From a virus: a stretch of 29,929 nucleotides of DNA. The translations under genes were made by a program, and so were the position numbers. The stretch is from IMG/VR virus record IMGVR_UViG_3300027687_000045, positions 1 through 29,929 of that record. One strand, 5' to 3'. The notes under the pieces were generated by a model that ran no database searches, was not told the origin of the DNA, and saw nothing but the letters and a program-made list of their open reading frames with translations. How positions within the stretch are numbered: the stretch's first letter is position 1; each line of letters begins with the position of its first letter. Of this stretch, positions 23,687 through 29,797 are shown piece by piece.

Positions 23687-23735
23687 TTGCAGAGATGATG
23701 AGATTAAGTACATAGTATTATGTAGGAAAAATATA

Positions 23736-23757
23736 TTTTGTTTTTACTATATAGTAG
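23736..23757 (+). promoter_or_regulatory. Promoter-like motif P1
   Basis: TTTGTTTTTACTATATAG (within 23736-23757) lies 70 nt before the first rightward gene and contains a 12-bp palindrome TACTATATAGTA. The same motif with two small insertions precedes the second rightward block at 25411. It does not form a normal sigma-70 -35/-10 pair. Confidence 0.4.
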
Positions 23758-23827
23758 TATGAGAGAGTAATCTGTAGTTGTTGCTATCTCATTCATTTAC
23801 AAGACTACATAAAAGGCGAAAATAATA

Positions 23828-24127
23828 ATGTTTAATAAACCATTAAATGAACTCACTCAAGATGAACAAAAGAAAGTAATACTAGAAGAGGTCAACAACT
23901 GGATGCAATCTAAGGATGCTCAGAGAATACAAGACCTACAGAGACCAGTGACAATAGTTAAGAGGCATGACTCATCTCATACTTCTTATAGGAAGTTATC
24001 ATTGGTTGATGCAATAGGTAGAATAGTTTTACTTGATTATGTCTTCTGCGAAAAAAAAGGAAAAGAATTTATAAAGGATTATGACTCAATCAAAAAGGTC
24101 AAAACTCTTCTTAACATTCTTAACTAA
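23828..24127 (+). CDS. 99-aa phage protein of unknown function
   Basis: This is the only rightward gene left of the TerS operon. It is charged and helical: MFNKPLNELTQDEQKKVIL, EEVNNWMQSKDAQRIQDLQR, HTSYRKLSLVDAIGRIVLL, ending in a Lys-rich helix (KVKTLLNILN). An AAAAGGCG site lies about 10 nt before the ATG, and motif P1 is 70 nt upstream. Its 3' end overlaps the 3' end of the leftward 70-aa gene by 42 nt, so the two transcripts are antisense there. No domain is recognised; a small host-takeover protein is possible from position only. Confidence 0.7.
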   Translation: MFNKPLNELTQDEQKKVILEEVNNWMQSKDAQRIQDLQRPVTIVKRHDSSHTSYRKLSLVDAIGRIVLLDYVFCEKKGKEFIKDYDSIKKVKTLLNILN

Positions 24128-25191: not shown

Positions 25192-25350
25192 ATGAATAAA
25201 AATACCCACCTTGCAAATCTGAAAGTTATAATAGGATTTGCCTTATTGTTTATTGCTAGACTAGGAAATGTTAATGCACTTGCAGACCTCCAACATTTAG
25301 CGATAAGTAGTATTGGATTGAGTTCAATCAAAATAGCGTACTGCGAATAA
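25192..25350 (+). CDS. Possible 52-aa exported or membrane peptide
   Basis: The frame encodes MNKNTHLANLK, a hydrophobic stretch VIIGFALLFIARLGNVNALA that fits a signal peptide with an AxA-like cut, and a short remainder ending KIAYCE. There is no clear ribosome site before the ATG. A sigma-70-like -35/-10 pair ends about 6 nt upstream, which would give a nearly leaderless mRNA. The opposite strand frame (25086-25331) begins only with TTG and looks worse. Confidence 0.3.
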   Translation: MNKNTHLANLKVIIGFALLFIARLGNVNALADLQHLAISSIGLSSIKIAYCE

Positions 25351-25410
25351 TCAAGAAAACGCAGTATTACTAATTGAGGCAGTGGGGCAAGATGAACAAT
25401 AAAAAATTAA

Positions 25411-25433
25411 TTTGTTTATTACTATATAAGTAG
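25411..25433 (+). promoter_or_regulatory. Promoter-like motif P2
   Basis: TTTGTTTATTACTATATAAG, followed by TAG, matches motif P1 at 23736 apart from two single-base insertions. It lies 196 nt before the first gene of the rightward block. Two similar AT-rich motifs at the heads of two rightward units suggest a phage promoter class. Confidence 0.4.
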
Positions 25434-25536
25434 CATCTTGTACTGCAATAGGTCGACAAAGACTTAGTCAGCTTCCAAACCTGATTATGTTTCACTTAGA
25501 TTGAGTTGCAAAAATCAAAAACTTTTTTTCTTAAAA

Positions 25537-25606
25537 TAAATTTTTATGGATGCACATATTTAGTTGCATCCACAAACATTTATATGTTTGGGAGAGAAGA
25601 GTTAAT
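25537..25606 (+). repeat. Double-hairpin element E1
   Basis: Order: TAAATTTTTATG, hairpin 1 TGGATGCA (25547-25554) with TGCATCCA (25565-25572), 10-nt loop, then hairpin 2 CAAACAT (25573-25579) with ATGTTTG (25584-25590), TTAT loop. The ribosome site GGGAGAGAAGAG and ATG 25607 follow. E1 to E4 are homologous. E1 is the only copy without a preceding gene, so it may be the leader of the transcript. Confidence 0.85.
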
Positions 25607-25897
25607 ATGCTTAATCAAAATACAGAGACAACAAAAATTGTTTATACTAAAATCAAAACAGAACACGATAGCAAGTGGGGAAATATTTCTTATAAAGAAA
25701 AATTTAATCTTAAATTTAATGATACTGATGTTTCAGTAATCCATGACTTTTGGGATTGGAAGCCTTTTAAAAAACAAAACCCTCAAGCTATAGAAGACCT
25801 CAAAGAGCATATCTCTGAAGAATTACAAAAAGGAACTAAATCAAATTTTTTACCTTATTGTAATTTTGGAGCAAGTGTCACTTGGGAAGTAATATAA
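25607..25897 (+). CDS. 96-aa protein of unknown function (module after E1)
   Basis: ATG 25607 is chosen because it follows the ribosome site GGGAGAGAAGAG at the end of E1; a longer frame from 25550 would translate the hairpins. The protein is charged with several aromatics: MLNQNTETTKIVYTKIKTE, SKWGNISYKEKFNLKFNDTD, VSVIHDFWDWKPFKKQNP, an acidic/basic helix (AIEDLKEHISEELQKG) and YCNFGASVTWEVI. Its beta-rich core and central helix suggest a small folded domain. No family is recognised. The stop codon is part of E2. Confidence 0.8.
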   Translation: MLNQNTETTKIVYTKIKTEHDSKWGNISYKEKFNLKFNDTDVSVIHDFWDWKPFKKQNPQAIEDLKEHISEELQKGTKSNFLPYCNFGASVTWEVI

Positions 25898-25964
25898 ATT
25901 TTTATGAATGCACATACTTAGTTGCATTCACAAACATTTATATGTTTGGGAAGGAAGAGTTATT
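25895..25964 (+). repeat. Double-hairpin element E2
   Basis: It begins with the TAA stop of the previous gene inside TAAATTTTTATG. Hairpin 1 is TGAATGCA (25905-25912) with TGCATTCA (25923-25930); relative to E1 a G-C pair is replaced by A-T in both arms. Hairpin 2 is CAAACAT (25931-25937) with ATGTTTG (25942-25948). GGGAAGGAAGAG and ATG 25965 follow at the same distance as in E1. Confidence 0.88.
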
Positions 25965-26126
25965 ATGGAATGTGAAGATTGTAATAATCAAGGTTATGTT
26001 TTATCTAATAATGAAAAAGAGGAAAAAGACTTGCAGAAGTGTGACACCTGTCAGACTTTTGTATCAGACTGTGAAGCAAAGTTATTTGTTTTAGATTATA
26101 TTAAAAACAAAGGAAGGAATAAATAA
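25965..26126 (+). CDS. 53-aa zinc-knuckle-like protein
   Basis: ATG 25965 follows GGGAAGGAAGAG of E2; the longer frame from 25908 would translate the hairpin. The product has two CxxC pairs: CEDC (residues 3-6, followed by NNQGYV) and CDTC (26-29, QKCDTCQTF). CxxCxxxG resembles half of a DnaJ-type zinc module, and such mini-knuckles are common among small phage proteins. A further Cys35 precedes a helix. The stop overlaps the next ATG as TAATG. It probably binds one zinc ion; its partner is unknown. Confidence 0.78.
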   Translation: MECEDCNNQGYVLSNNEKEEKDLQKCDTCQTFVSDCEAKLFVLDYIKNKGRNK

Positions 26127-26410
26127 TGGAAGACAGATTAGCAATACTTATAAATAGAATAAAAAATAATCTTTTAGCTGAAAAAAAGATTATTGATAAT
26201 AAAGATGACACACATTTTGATTATGTAGATTATCATATTGATGAGTCTTATTTAGAAGGTTATCAAAAAGCGATAACCGATTTAGAAATCGTGATTAAAA
26301 CTATGGGAGAAGAAGAAAAAGAAAAGAAAGAAATGCAATCCATAGTAGACAGTTTTAATACTAAAAAATTTAATCCTGTCTTAGTAAAACTTATTAAGGA
26401 GACTAACTAA
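26126..26410 (+). CDS. 94-aa helical protein of unknown function
   Basis: The product is helical and Lys/Glu-rich: EDRLAILINRIKNNLLAEKK, then HFDYVDYHIDESYLEGYQKA, ITDLEIVIKTMGEEEKEKKE and a C-terminal helix VLVKLIKETN. The DYHIDESYLEGYQKAITDLE segment, a short loop followed by a helix, resembles small phage proteins with four-helix or coiled-coil folds. Both ends are TAATG overlaps. No family is recognised. Confidence 0.78.
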   Translation: MEDRLAILINRIKNNLLAEKKIIDNKDDTHFDYVDYHIDESYLEGYQKAITDLEIVIKTMGEEEKEKKEMQSIVDSFNTKKFNPVLVKLIKETN

Positions 26411-26613
26411 TGGATTATGAATTTAGAAATAGTCAGGAGGCATTTGAGAATGCTCTTAACTTAGGTAAGTTTACAGATGACTCTGAGGATGGCAGACAGT
26501 ATGTGGGTGGATGGATGTATATGTATAGCCTAGCTAATACTGATTACTTTAAGAATAGGAATGACAGGAAATATTTAACTGTCGAATATAAATCTATAAG
26601 TATACCTAGATAA
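26410..26613 (+). CDS. 67-aa protein of unknown function
   Basis: ATG 26410 overlaps the previous stop as TAATG. The product is acidic and aromatic: YEFRNSQEAFENALNLGKFT, DDSEDGRQYVGGWMYMYSLA, NTDYFKNRNDRKYLTVEYK. The sequence EFRNSQEAFENALNLGKF...YVGGWMYMY resembles small proteins in marine phages that carry an N-terminal helix and a YMYMxS-type motif. Function unknown. Its stop codon opens element E3. Confidence 0.78.
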   Translation: MDYEFRNSQEAFENALNLGKFTDDSEDGRQYVGGWMYMYSLANTDYFKNRNDRKYLTVEYKSISIPR

Positions 26614-26676
26614 ATTTTTATGAAAGCACATTGATGCTTTCACAAACATTTATATGTTTGGGAAGGAAGAGTTATT
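26611..26676 (+). repeat. Double-hairpin element E3
   Basis: It begins with the TAA stop of the 67-aa gene. Hairpin 1 is TGAAAGCA (26621-26628) with TGCTTTCA (26635-26642), 6-nt loop CATTGA; the T-A pair of E2 is replaced by A-T in both arms. Hairpin 2 is CAAACAT (26643-26649) with ATGTTTG (26654-26660), as in E2. GGGAAGGAAGAG and ATG 26677 follow. Confidence 0.88.
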
Positions 26677-26910
26677 ATGGAAATTAATTTACCTAATAAA
26701 ACTATTGAACTTAATGATGCAAAAGTTCATACAATTATGGATGGCTTAGATGAACTTATTATTAATATTGATAGCATGACATCTAATGAAAAAGATATGC
26801 GTGTTTATGATGATAAAGGAAAATTAAATAAATATGGCAAACAATGTGAAGATAAAAAACAAAATGCGATTGAACTTCATTGTCAATTGTATGACTATAT
26901 AACTAGATAA
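26677..26910 (+). CDS. 77-aa protein of unknown function (module after E3)
   Basis: The product MEINLPNKTIELNDAKVHTI continues with MDGLDELIINIDSMTSNEKD, a Lys/Asp-rich linker with KLNKYGKQCEDKKQNAIE and a helix LHCQLYDYITR. It contains two Cys but no CxxC. It is likely a small helical protein; no family is recognised. The ATG follows E3's ribosome site and the stop is the first codon of E4. Confidence 0.78.
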   Translation: MEINLPNKTIELNDAKVHTIMDGLDELIINIDSMTSNEKDMRVYDDKGKLNKYGKQCEDKKQNAIELHCQLYDYITR

Positions 26911-26981
26911 ATTTTGATGAATGCACATTGATGCATTCACCAACATTTATGTTGGAATTAACAATTAACAAGGAGAAATAT
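26908..26981 (+). repeat. Double-hairpin element E4 (diverged)
   Basis: It begins with the stop of the 77-aa gene (TAAATTTTGATG). Hairpin 1 is TGAATGCA (26918-26925) with TGCATTCA (26932-26939), loop CATTGA. Hairpin 2 is CCAACA (26940-26945) with TGTTGG (26950-26955); A-T is replaced by C-G in both arms relative to E1 to E3. It then diverges, with a longer leader and a strong AAGGAG site before ATG 26982. Confidence 0.85.
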
Positions 26982-27878
26982 ATGTTTGAAGTAAAAAAGA
27001 ATGAACTAACGCTTAGTGATAGTTTTAAATTTGATGTAGGACTAACACCGAATTATTATCGTGATGAAGTGGCAAATGAGTTTGTAAAAATACCTGAGAG
27101 TTTTCAGGTTATGGATACAACTAACAATGAGCCTATCAGCAATGCAATTGTAGGCTCTCAGTATAATCCTGATGCATACTACAAGATGATTGCCGTGCTT
27201 TCAGAGGCAATATTAAAAAGTAATATTTATGGAGAGTTTCATGTTCAAGACAGTCTCTTCGATGGTAAAGGGAAATTTGTCAGGGAAATTAGATTTCCAA
27301 ATCTTACTATTACACCAAAGACTAGAAAAGTTGGTGACATCATCGAATTTAGAATTCGATTTAGAACTAGCTTGGATGGGTCTTGGATGCACTTACTTGA
27401 AATTGCACCAATAAGACTAGCTTGTTTAAATGGACAGACTTCAGCAATTCATAAGCTGATGTTTGCAAATAAACACACATCAGGTTTCAGTGTAGATACT
27501 CTGAGAATAAATATTCAGAGTGGCATTGAAACTTTTCAGAGTATGGGAAGTTGGTTTGAGTCTCTATCTAATAGAGAAATTTCTGAGTCTAATGTCAGGG
27601 AAATTTTAAATACTACTTTATTTAAAAACCAAGTTAAGGCAAAAGCTGACCTAGATAAAAACAAGACTTATAATTGGATGATTAACCAATTCTATCAGGA
27701 GAGCAAAAACTTAGGCATGACTATGTACGCCTGTTATAATATGCTTACGCATTGGGCATCCCACACACCTCACGAACTTAGAACTAAAAGTACGAGAGTT
27801 CATCAGAGACAATACGATGACAATCAAAAAGTGCTTTTTGTTTTAAAGTCACCAGTGTGGAATAACTACATGAACTAA
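26982..27878 (+). CDS. DUF932-like phage protein
   Basis: ATG 26982 follows AAGGAG; an upstream start at 26928 would lie within E4. The 298-aa product has FKFDVGLTPNYYRDEVANEF, then YNPDAYYKMIAVLSEAILKS, a central core with FRIRFRTSLDGSWMHLLEIA and PIRLACLNGQTS (about residues 148-178), and HKLMFANKHTSGFSVDTLRI. The core pattern SLDGS...L...IRL.C.NG is that of the DUF932 (phage/plasmid-like) family, found in phages and plasmids in early accessory regions. Molecular function is unknown; links to DNA recombination or host takeover are only guesses from neighbourhoods. The C-terminus (TYNWMINQFYQESKNLGMTM, ending VLKSPVWNNYMN) is helical. Confidence 0.8.
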   Translation: MFEVKKNELTLSDSFKFDVGLTPNYYRDEVANEFVKIPESFQVMDTTNNEPISNAIVGSQYNPDAYYKMIAVLSEAILKSNIYGEFHVQDSLFDGKGKFVREIRFPNLTITPKTRKVGDIIEFRIRFRTSLDGSWMHLLEIAPIRLACLNGQTSAIHKLMFANKHTSGFSVDTLRINIQSGIETFQSMGSWFESLSNREISESNVREILNTTLFKNQVKAKADLDKNKTYNWMINQFYQESKNLGMTMYACYNMLTHWASHTPHELRTKSTRVHQRQYDDNQKVLFVLKSPVWNNYMN

Positions 27879-27890
27879 CAATAAGTTCTA

Positions 27891-27946
27891 ATGATTGCAT
27901 CTTCGGATGCAATCATCAGCACTTGCTGAAGATGGAAGGTAAAAAT
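27891..27946 (+). promoter_or_regulatory. Double-hairpin element E5 (unrelated sequence, same layout)
   Basis: Hairpin 1 is ATGATTGCATC (27891-27901) with GATGCAATCAT (27906-27916), 11 bp closed by a stable UUCG tetraloop. Hairpin 2 can form as TCAGC with GCTGA around ACTT (27916-27929). The ribosome site GGAAGG and ATG 27947 follow. Sequence differs from E1 to E4, but the order of two hairpins, then ribosome site, then start is the same. Confidence 0.8.
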
Positions 27947-28255
27947 ATGCTAGATAACAAATGGAAAGTTGGAAAGTATGTAGATTACAGAAATGTATTC
28001 ATACATCATTCCAAGCCATTGCCATTTGATGAGGGTGAGGAATACACAGACGATAAAAATGAAGCGTCACAAATTAGTGTATTCCTAGAGACTCATTACA
28101 AAGATGAGAATGGTGAAGAAGAGTCCATGTTTGATGTTGAATTTGAAAAAGAATTTGACATAAAAAAACTTGGATATGACAAAGCTAAAGACAAAGCTAT
28201 TTCTTATGCAATAAAACTTAGTAAGAAGTATGACATTGACTATGAGTGGTATTAA
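27947..28255 (+). CDS. 102-aa protein of unknown function (module after E5)
   Basis: ATG 27947 lies 7 nt after GGAAGG. The product begins MLDNKWKVGKYVDYRNVFIH, then KPLPFDEGEEYTDDKNEA, strands SQISVFLETHYKDENGEEES and FDVEFEKEFDIKKLGYDKAK, ending with the helix DKAISYAIKLSKKYDIDYEW. The alternation of strands followed by a helix suggests a small alpha/beta fold. No family is recognised. The next gene follows after 16 nt with AAAGGAGAG. Confidence 0.8.
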   Translation: MLDNKWKVGKYVDYRNVFIHHSKPLPFDEGEEYTDDKNEASQISVFLETHYKDENGEEESMFDVEFEKEFDIKKLGYDKAKDKAISYAIKLSKKYDIDYEWY

Positions 28256-28919: not shown

Positions 28920-29098
28920 TGAAGATATACGGATACGATTTAGTAGAGGGAACAAAGTTTGAGATGTCTATAGAAGAACTTTGTAGGATAAATAACTGCG
29001 AGGATGGTCTGAATAGTAATTGTTATATCTACACTACAGAGGAAGATAGAGATTTACATTTAAGCCAAGTAGGGAAACTCAAGTTAGAAAGTATGTGA
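28919..29098 (+). CDS. 59-aa protein of unknown function
   Basis: ATG 28919 overlaps the previous TAA, with GGGAGGAGG just upstream. The product is MKIYGYDLVEGTKFEMSIEE, then LCRINNCEDGLNSNCYIY and TTEEDRDLHLSQVGKLKLES. Three Cys lie in the middle. The FEMSIEELCRINNC part looks like a short helix joined to a strand (YIYTTEED), perhaps a degenerate helix-turn-helix. It is the last gene before element E6. Confidence 0.72.
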   Translation: MKIYGYDLVEGTKFEMSIEELCRINNCEDGLNSNCYIYTTEEDRDLHLSQVGKLKLESM

Positions 29099-29109
29099 AT
29101 AAGTTAAGC

Positions 29110-29175
29110 AGAAGTGGTTGACCCACTTCTACTTCACTTGTGTGAAGTTTTATTAACAATATAAAAGGAGCGAAT
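29110..29175 (+). promoter_or_regulatory. Double-hairpin element E6 (unrelated sequence, same layout)
   Basis: Hairpin 1 is AGAAGTGG (29110-29117) with CCACTTCT (29123-29130), 5-nt loop. Hairpin 2 is ACTTCAC (29131-29137) with GTGAAGT (29142-29148), loop TTGT, with no spacer between. TTTTATTAACAA, the site AAAAGGAGCG and ATG 29176 follow. It resembles a terminator for the upstream unit with the second hairpin in the leader of the next. Confidence 0.8.
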
Positions 29176-29484
29176 ATGAAGAAACCTTATAAGAGAAATG
29201 TCGATAAGATTGTATCGATACTAAAGCAACTGCGTTATGACAACAGAGTTGCAAATGCTATAGTGAAACCTTTTAAGTTAAAATTAATTGACTTACTAGG
29301 TGGTCAAGAAAAATTAACTGTAGATGGAAGTATTGGAAGTTTAAGTATACAAAAAATTTCTAAGCCTATGGTTGATATGGATTTATTAAAAGCAAATCCT
29401 ATTCATTATAAAAAGTATATTAAATATCAGACTCAATACAGATTAACGTCTAAAGAGTTTGATATTATAATGGAGGTAGCATAA
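29176..29484 (+). CDS. 102-aa basic protein of unknown function
   Basis: ATG 29176 follows AAAAGGAGCG. The product MKKPYKRNVDKIVSILKQLR, YDNRVANAIVKPFKLKLIDL, LGGQEKLTVDGSIGSLSIQK ends with KYQTQYRLTSKEFDIIMEVA. The N-terminal helix, the basic strand-like middle and the C-terminal segment suggest a small alpha/beta protein, possibly nucleic-acid binding given its charge. It overlaps the next gene as TAATG. No family is recognised. Confidence 0.78.
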   Translation: MKKPYKRNVDKIVSILKQLRYDNRVANAIVKPFKLKLIDLLGGQEKLTVDGSIGSLSIQKISKPMVDMDLLKANPIHYKKYIKYQTQYRLTSKEFDIIMEVA

Positions 29485-29763: not shown

Positions 29764-29797
29764 GGGATACTGGATGCAATCCAGTGTCCCTTTTTTT
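29764..29797 (+). terminator. Intrinsic terminator of the rightward operon
   Basis: GGGATACTGGAT (29764-29775) pairs with ATCCAGTGTCCC (29779-29790), 12 bp with one G-U pair and a 3-nt loop, followed by seven T and later another T8. This is a strong Rho-independent terminator, marking the end of the rightward unit that began near 25411. Confidence 0.9.

Follow-up and report, generated by a model that had tools for sequence, protein, structure and literature searches.

What is being accomplished by a folded RNA which recurs from gene to gene along a single phage operon? The DNA considered here, referred to as the window, is the whole stretch analysed, i.e., the 29,929 nucleotides of virus record IMGVR_UViG_3300027687_000045 (IMG/VR), and it probably is part of the larger genome of a SAR11-type phage. 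That assignment is made because the terminase encoded in the window shares 41.6% identity with its counterpart in Pelagibacter phage HTVC027P, with the host inferred from sequence and not certain. The rightward operon of this 29.9-kb record carries six double-hairpin elements, E1 to E6, all on the plus strand. A first-pass annotation had described four of these, E1 to E4, as double hairpins preceding four genes, and all four are found where it placed them, each ahead of a start codon; E5 and E6 it overlooked, along with an alternative pairing to which much of what follows is devoted. We conclude that this is a portable, repeated, cis-acting mRNA element, probably a device for cutting or controlling phage mRNA, and one in which, across dozens of related phages, pairing is retained and sequence is not.

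Elements of the window

An element is approximately 55 nt in length and is described here as consisting, in order, of P, hairpin 1, D, a loop, and P'. By P is meant the strand directly 5' of hairpin 1, by D the 5' half of hairpin 2 together with its loop, and by P' the 3' arm of hairpin 2. The leader copy, E1, spans 25536-25590 (P, 25536-25546; hairpin 1, 25547-25572; D, 25573-25583; hairpin 2, 25573-25590) and is followed by a ribosome site at 25591-25606 and a start codon at 25607. E2 spans 25893-25948 (P, 25893-25904; hairpin 1, 25905-25930; hairpin 2, 25931-25948; start codon, 25965), with the stop codon of the upstream gene, TAA, held within its P at 25895-25897. A stop TAA is similarly held within the P of E3, at 26611-26613, and of E4, at 26908-26910, where E3 spans 26610-26660 (P, 26610-26620; hairpin 1, 26621-26642; hairpin 2, 26643-26660; start codon, 26677) and E4 spans 26907-26955 (P, 26907-26917; hairpin 1, 26918-26939; hairpin 2, 26940-26955; start codon, 26982). 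E5, at 27879-27929, has as its P CAATAAGTTCTA (27879-27890), followed by an 11-bp hairpin 1 with a TTCG loop (27891-27916), hairpin 2 (27916-27929), and a start codon at 27947, the upstream stop, TAA, being at 27876-27878. E6, at 29099-29148, consists of P ATAAGTTAAGC (29099-29109), hairpin 1 (29110-29130), and hairpin 2 (29131-29148), the latter with D ACTTCACTTGT and P' GTGAAGT; its start codon is at 29176 and the upstream stop, TGA, at 29096-29098. These last two elements are unrelated in sequence to E1-E4 while sharing with them both architecture and operon.

The hairpin 1 arms had been described as changing in step, with loops ranging from 10 to 6 nt, and this is indeed how they read: TGGATGCA/TGCATCCA in E1, TGAATGCA/TGCATTCA in E2, TGAAAGCA/TGCTTTCA in E3, and again TGAATGCA/TGCATTCA in E4, with loops of 10, 10, 6, and 6 nt, respectively. 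Likewise upheld is a change in hairpin 2 from CAAACAT/ATGTTTG to CCAACA/TGTTGG, that is, from CAAACAT-TTAT-ATGTTTG in E1-E3 to CCAACA-TTTA-TGTTGG in E4, as is a distance from hairpin 2 to the start codon of 16 nt in three copies, E1-E3 (26 nt in E4). The E4 sequence, given by the first-pass annotation as TAAATTTTTATG, required correction, as it in fact is TAAATTTTGATG, a difference which itself is compensatory in terms of the pairing of P with D.

A structural descriptor combining the P:D pairing with hairpins 1 and 2 places E1-E6 as exactly the top plus-strand ranks of the window, with scores of 42-46. Shuffling the window 20 times gave no score above 37, from which it follows that the six are not chance occurrences. 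The descriptor was designed after E1-E6 had been seen, and the real test thus is that of relatives. A covariance model, built here from an alignment that includes all six, matches E1-E5 within the window and misses E6, the match to E5 having an E value of 3.9e-05 with E5 being part of the model's own alignment.

Other features are located nearby. A weaker candidate (descriptor score 40) is found on the plus strand at 23716-23760, upstream of a plus-strand open reading frame at 23828, and it is present as well in loci L007 and L027. At 29764-29790 is a strong intrinsic terminator, followed by its T run, and then, at the contig end (29885-29929), a double hairpin which by eye is without P:D pairing; locus L095 has a similar one. 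The gene following E4 (26982-27875) encodes a DUF932 protein (Pfam E value 8.3e-12) that is kept next to the array in related phages. Direct protein searching returned no relatives of this gene, these being found later using an alignment of the protein.

Two mutually exclusive folds

The description of the structure as two hairpins holds to the extent that both hairpins are real, but it is incomplete, as the 5' prefix, P, is a rival partner for hairpin 2's 5' half. P, that is, is complementary to D, in a fixed register that takes in both the 5' arm and the loop of hairpin 2. In E1-E3 this pairing is ATAAAT.T.TTT.A [hairpin 1] C.AAA.C.ATTTAT, including two 1x1 mismatches (the T/C and A/C positions), and in E4 it is ATAAAT.T.TTG.A [hairpin 1] C.CAA.C.ATTTAT. 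Relative to E1-E3, E4 thereby displays a triple compensation, with T to G in P, A to C in D, and T to G in P'.

Two folds can be distinguished. Fold A consists of hairpin 1 plus hairpin 2 (D:P') and excludes fold B, with hairpins 1 and 2 abutting, i.e., there is no spacer between them, and with D:P' lacking the mismatches of P:D. In fold B, instead, P:D prolongs hairpin 1 beyond a mismatch at the junction, giving a single hairpin of about 21 positions; the mismatch is seen in every copy, partly as set by how the descriptor was defined. The resulting helix, P:D plus hairpin 1, comprises 20.8 +/- 1.1 positions (range 18-23), some of them mismatched. Mean predicted energies over 79 copies are -17.1 kcal/mol for fold A and -19.3 kcal/mol for fold B, a difference of 2.3 +/- 1.6, whereas within the window it is fold A that is better, by 0.3-1.6 kcal/mol in E1-E3 and E6, with E4 near parity. 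As judged from these calculations, the folds are near-isoenergetic and each element is bistable. The RNA architecture as such is well supported.

Selection on the sense RNA

Selection for RNA structure, as opposed to a DNA motif, had been suggested from the four window copies alone, with covariation in related genomes proposed as the check. The suggestion is borne out by an alignment of 47 sequences, in which 17 of 19 pairs are changed on both sides and only one column is invariant. Its cells are paired at a rate of 95.3%, falling to 33-45% if the register is slid, and double-change cells number 152 versus 46 in shuffles. A few diverged rows are misaligned, and these are counts of sequences, not of events, without correction for shared descent. 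G-U cells outnumber A-C cells 95 to 10, and because G-U pairs so outnumber A-C mismatches, the structure is, as inferred from the sequences, one that is kept in the sense RNA. A DNA cruciform or recombination site as prime function was considered as well, and it is this sense-strand G-U bias which argues against it.

Covariation among P, D, and P' is in threes, with relatives as well as window types providing examples: TAAGTATTTT/TGAATACTT/AAGTATTCA, TAAATATTTT/TGAATATT/AATATTCA, TTATGTATTTT/TGAATGCATAA/GCATTCA, TTAAGTATTTA/CCAATACTTA/GTATTGG, TATACATTT/CAATGTGTA/ACATTG, and ATAACTTTAAA/CTTAGGGTTAT/CCTAAG. Swapping D among elements reduces P:D pairing from 0.83 to 0.63 over 32 unique P/D combinations. 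For the hairpin 2 loop portion alone the reduction is from 0.87 to 0.66, with the observed value reached in none of 2000 shuffles, and that portion is not explained by P', as P' does not contain the loop. The 32 combinations came from a descriptor that demands some P:D pairing, and a set of double hairpins picked without any such rule serves as a check. There, 77 of 98 have 8-10 of the 10 possible P:D pairs, versus a mean of 4.55 with P shuffled. Nearly all of the 14 lowest rows printed of this rule-free set are antisense readings of the same elements, which amounts to an internal control.

These results bear on whether the hairpins might be stabilizing or partially terminating structures only, protecting RNA ends or slowing polymerase, with P:D pairing then a by-product of the resemblance of P to P'. 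Hairpin 2 of E6 is followed by TTTTATT and scores as terminator-like, which counts in favour of this reading, but hairpin 2 of E1-E5 lacks a T run, and the matching of P also to the hairpin 2 loop (0.87 versus 0.66 upon swapping), absent from P', is not what a by-product would display. We give this explanation very little credence. For the same lack of a T run following hairpin 2, E6 excepted, simple partial termination, which had been listed among possible roles, is unlikely. Intrinsic termination, marked by a G+C-rich hairpin with a T run behind it, was also looked for directly and set aside: among plus-strand hairpins of the six elements, only hairpin 2 of E6 is called as a terminator, those of E1-E5 not being called.

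Relatives and gene context

Approximately 100 distinct copies are present in related marine phage contigs, with up to nine per contig. The loci were gathered by means of terminase proteins, by means of a pattern that fixes P and hairpin 2 while leaving hairpin 1 free, and by means of two array-near proteins, the latter searches being blind to the element although their query proteins came from element-bearing loci. Scanning a first set of these loci with the descriptor yields 99 matches scoring at least 42 versus 3 in shuffled loci. Loci selected by an array-near protein have up to nine copies each (L159). A covariance-model search of related phages, which had been proposed, also matched many copies in relatives.

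Most copies sit between a stop codon and a ribosome site, with the start codon mostly 13-17 nt 3' of hairpin 2. The genes that follow vary, i.e., the families found at the same array position, after the first element, are c42, c53, c45, or c30, and the order of c10 and c19 differs between L109 and L132. Because gene families after elements differ in this manner between phages, element-plus-gene units are behaving like cassettes. It can be asked, then, whether elements are mainly homologous junctions for the gain, loss, and shuffling of small early genes, with RNA structure secondary. Both the differing families and the differing gene order are as such junctions would predict, but sense-strand G-U bias and triple covariation require selection on RNA, and E5 and E6 have diverged too far to provide homology. 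Junctions as main function consequently are considered to be improbable, though gene shuffling may be a by-product of the elements.

The relationship of elements to upstream stop codons is regular. Among the 88 copies with an upstream gene, the stop codon is TAA in 86 and is located exactly 10 nt 5' of hairpin 1 in 61, with its TAA pairing in fold B with the hairpin 2 loop. This regularity, in combination with near-isoenergetic folds, is what would be expected of a ribosome-sensing switch acting without cleavage. Translation ending at the TAA within P would place a ribosome over P and so force fold A, with fold B forming in the absence of upstream translation, and as P' and the next ribosome site would be presented differently by the two folds, expression of the next gene would depend on translation of the previous one. 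By inspection, however, the ribosome site is sequestered in neither fold, and the stop codons of E5 and E6 are 14-15 nt away. In leader copies, moreover, which have neither a stop codon nor a gene upstream, P:D pairing persists, P being a different one and the hairpin 2 loop altered to match. Such a switch, absent cleavage, seems unlikely, if still worth bearing in mind.

The hairpin 1 loops of leader copies (E1 and E2 of the window, L104, L112, L118, and L159) often contain CTNAGT (CTTAGT, CTAAGT, CTGAGT, CTCAGT), and this is so in distant families too. That hints at recognition of these loops by a protein or RNA. A short ATG frame opens within hairpin 1 in each of E1-E4, and a leader peptide was entertained as a candidate; the ATG is missing in most relatives, so the frame is no feature of the family.

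Comparison with known RNAs

No Rfam 15 family reaches its gathering threshold with the elements, and a blastn search of 50,697 phage records returned no match across a whole element. Neither descriptor nor covariance model finds an element in HTVC027P (whole), in HTVC023P (first 17.3 kb), or in the T7 early region. Seven matches were obtained from bacterial and archaeal contigs in a genome search for the host, none showing the element. The element is not described in the open literature searched, most subscription papers being outside of that coverage.

Alternative hairpins built from three segments, two of the hairpins being exclusive, are the basis of trp-type attenuators. The element is alike in having three segments and two exclusive hairpins, and possibly in ribosome sensing on the first segment. 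It is unlike in that most copies lack a T run following hairpin 2, in being repeated between many genes, and in lacking a conserved regulatory peptide.

The early RNase III sites of phage T7 (R0.3, R0.5, R1, R1.1, R1.3) occupy intercistronic and leader positions in the early operon. Likeness of the element to these sites consists of an irregular hairpin beside a ribosome site along with that intercistronic or leader place. The difference is that nothing equivalent to the competing P' strand turned up in T7, where the best descriptor score, 29, is that of background. As the T7 early region lacks a competing strand, an RNase III-type site possessing one would be a variant of the T7 type. Cutting of T7 R1.1 RNA is at one bond, giving rise to products of 47 and 13 nt (PMC4858673).

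The put RNA of phage HK022 consists of two abutting stem-loops, about 70 nt in all, downstream of an early promoter (PMC9378689). By analogy, the element could be an antiterminator or anti-pausing RNA, with the nascent two-hairpin RNA binding elongating RNA polymerase and suppressing termination along the early operon. Consistent with this are two stem-loops set side by side, with at most a short spacer, within about 55 nt, as fold A provides, and a first copy in the operon leader, as is the case for putL and putR of HK022. Put, however, is present as two copies per genome, acting over at least 10 kb (PMC9378689), such that up to nine copies of an element would be redundant. Put also has bases that are critical for RNA polymerase contact, whereas the element, in many copies, has almost no invariant bases (one alignment column), though no direct comparison with put sequences was made; and its third, competing strand, i.e., the P:D alternative, goes unexplained. 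A put-like function is, on balance, quite doubtful.

Of structured RNA motifs known from marine phages, manA and wcaG (PMC2864571) are alike in being covarying RNAs of marine phage untranslated regions, but neither of these Rfam families matches the elements.

A possible intercistronic processing signal

The interpretation that we favour, tentatively and with less than even confidence, is of a signal for processing early phage mRNA between its cistrons, RNase III-type and perhaps ribosome-gated. With no data on RNA ends, cleavage, or expression behind them, cutting by RNase III, the sequence of folding events, and gating by ribosomes all are inferences, with 'early' itself inferred from gene order. 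RNase III-type processing is favoured because the length and place of fold B match those of T7 early sites, and because a cut between hairpin 1 and D would provide both products with an end hairpin, which would explain why the hairpins abut. Two criteria for a processing site, a helix of about two turns or ~20 bp and an intercistronic and leader place in a polycistronic early transcript, are met, the first by P:D plus hairpin 1. Also counted in favour are the junction mismatch, the lack of a spacer, and the regular stop and start distances.

During transcription, it is proposed, fold B would form first, and its double helix, two turns long and mismatched at the centre, would suit host RNase III as a substrate, much as do the T7 early sites. 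After a cut at the hairpin 1/D junction, the upstream mRNA would end in hairpin 1, as a 3' cap, and the downstream mRNA would begin with hairpin 2, as a 5' cap just before the ribosome site. The products would then part and refold, since D:P' is free of the mismatches found in P:D. In most copies the upstream stop codon lies within P, so that a ribosome finishing the upstream gene would cover P and favour fold A, with processing thereby tied to translation. Against such processing, RNase III sites normally need no competing strand, and for E1-E3 and E6 the predicted stability of fold B falls a little short of that of fold A.

A broader formulation is of a portable three-strand bistable switch or insulator, with the upstream stop codon in the switching strand and with copies ahead of one cistron after another in an early phage operon, such that a ribosome finishing one gene decides the fold ahead of the next and hence its processing or expression. 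This we view as possible, though on the doubtful side.

Other structured RNAs and significance

Elements are not the only RNAs of these operons. Located 5' of E1, in the same transcript region but separate from the element, is a structured leader RNA (25260-25510, plus strand), non-coding, 250-300 nt in length, and conserved in 11 phages (the window along with L007, L014, L015, L022, L095, L097-L099, L109, and L135). Among its predicted pairs, 20 of 38 are changed on both sides; among its blocks are GCAATAGGTCGACC, a hairpin whose loop is GCTTCCAAACC, and GACRCTTAGATTGAGTTGC; and nothing in Rfam matches it. A related leader, containing AATCGGTGACACCGATAAGGAAACAGTC, is present in L104-type phages. 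Nine more structured RNA modules, of ~40-110 nt, follow late array elements in varying combinations (L104, L123, L014, L154, L118, L119, L149, L152, L156, L098), one of them, with GTGGATTGGTTTTAGAGG...CAACCAC, being present in 18 loci. None of the nine is a tRNA or matches Rfam. With the same leaders carrying further, unclassified structured RNAs, this phage group looks to be unusually rich in cis-acting RNA.

In the usual picture, phage operons are divided up by simple hairpins, promoters, and terminators. Here, in a group of uncultivated marine phages, it is instead one bistable RNA device that is found at gene boundaries, evolving by compensatory triples. Should it truly be a processing site or a ribosome-gated switch, then it would represent a compact, reusable part for separating cistrons within polycistronic mRNA.
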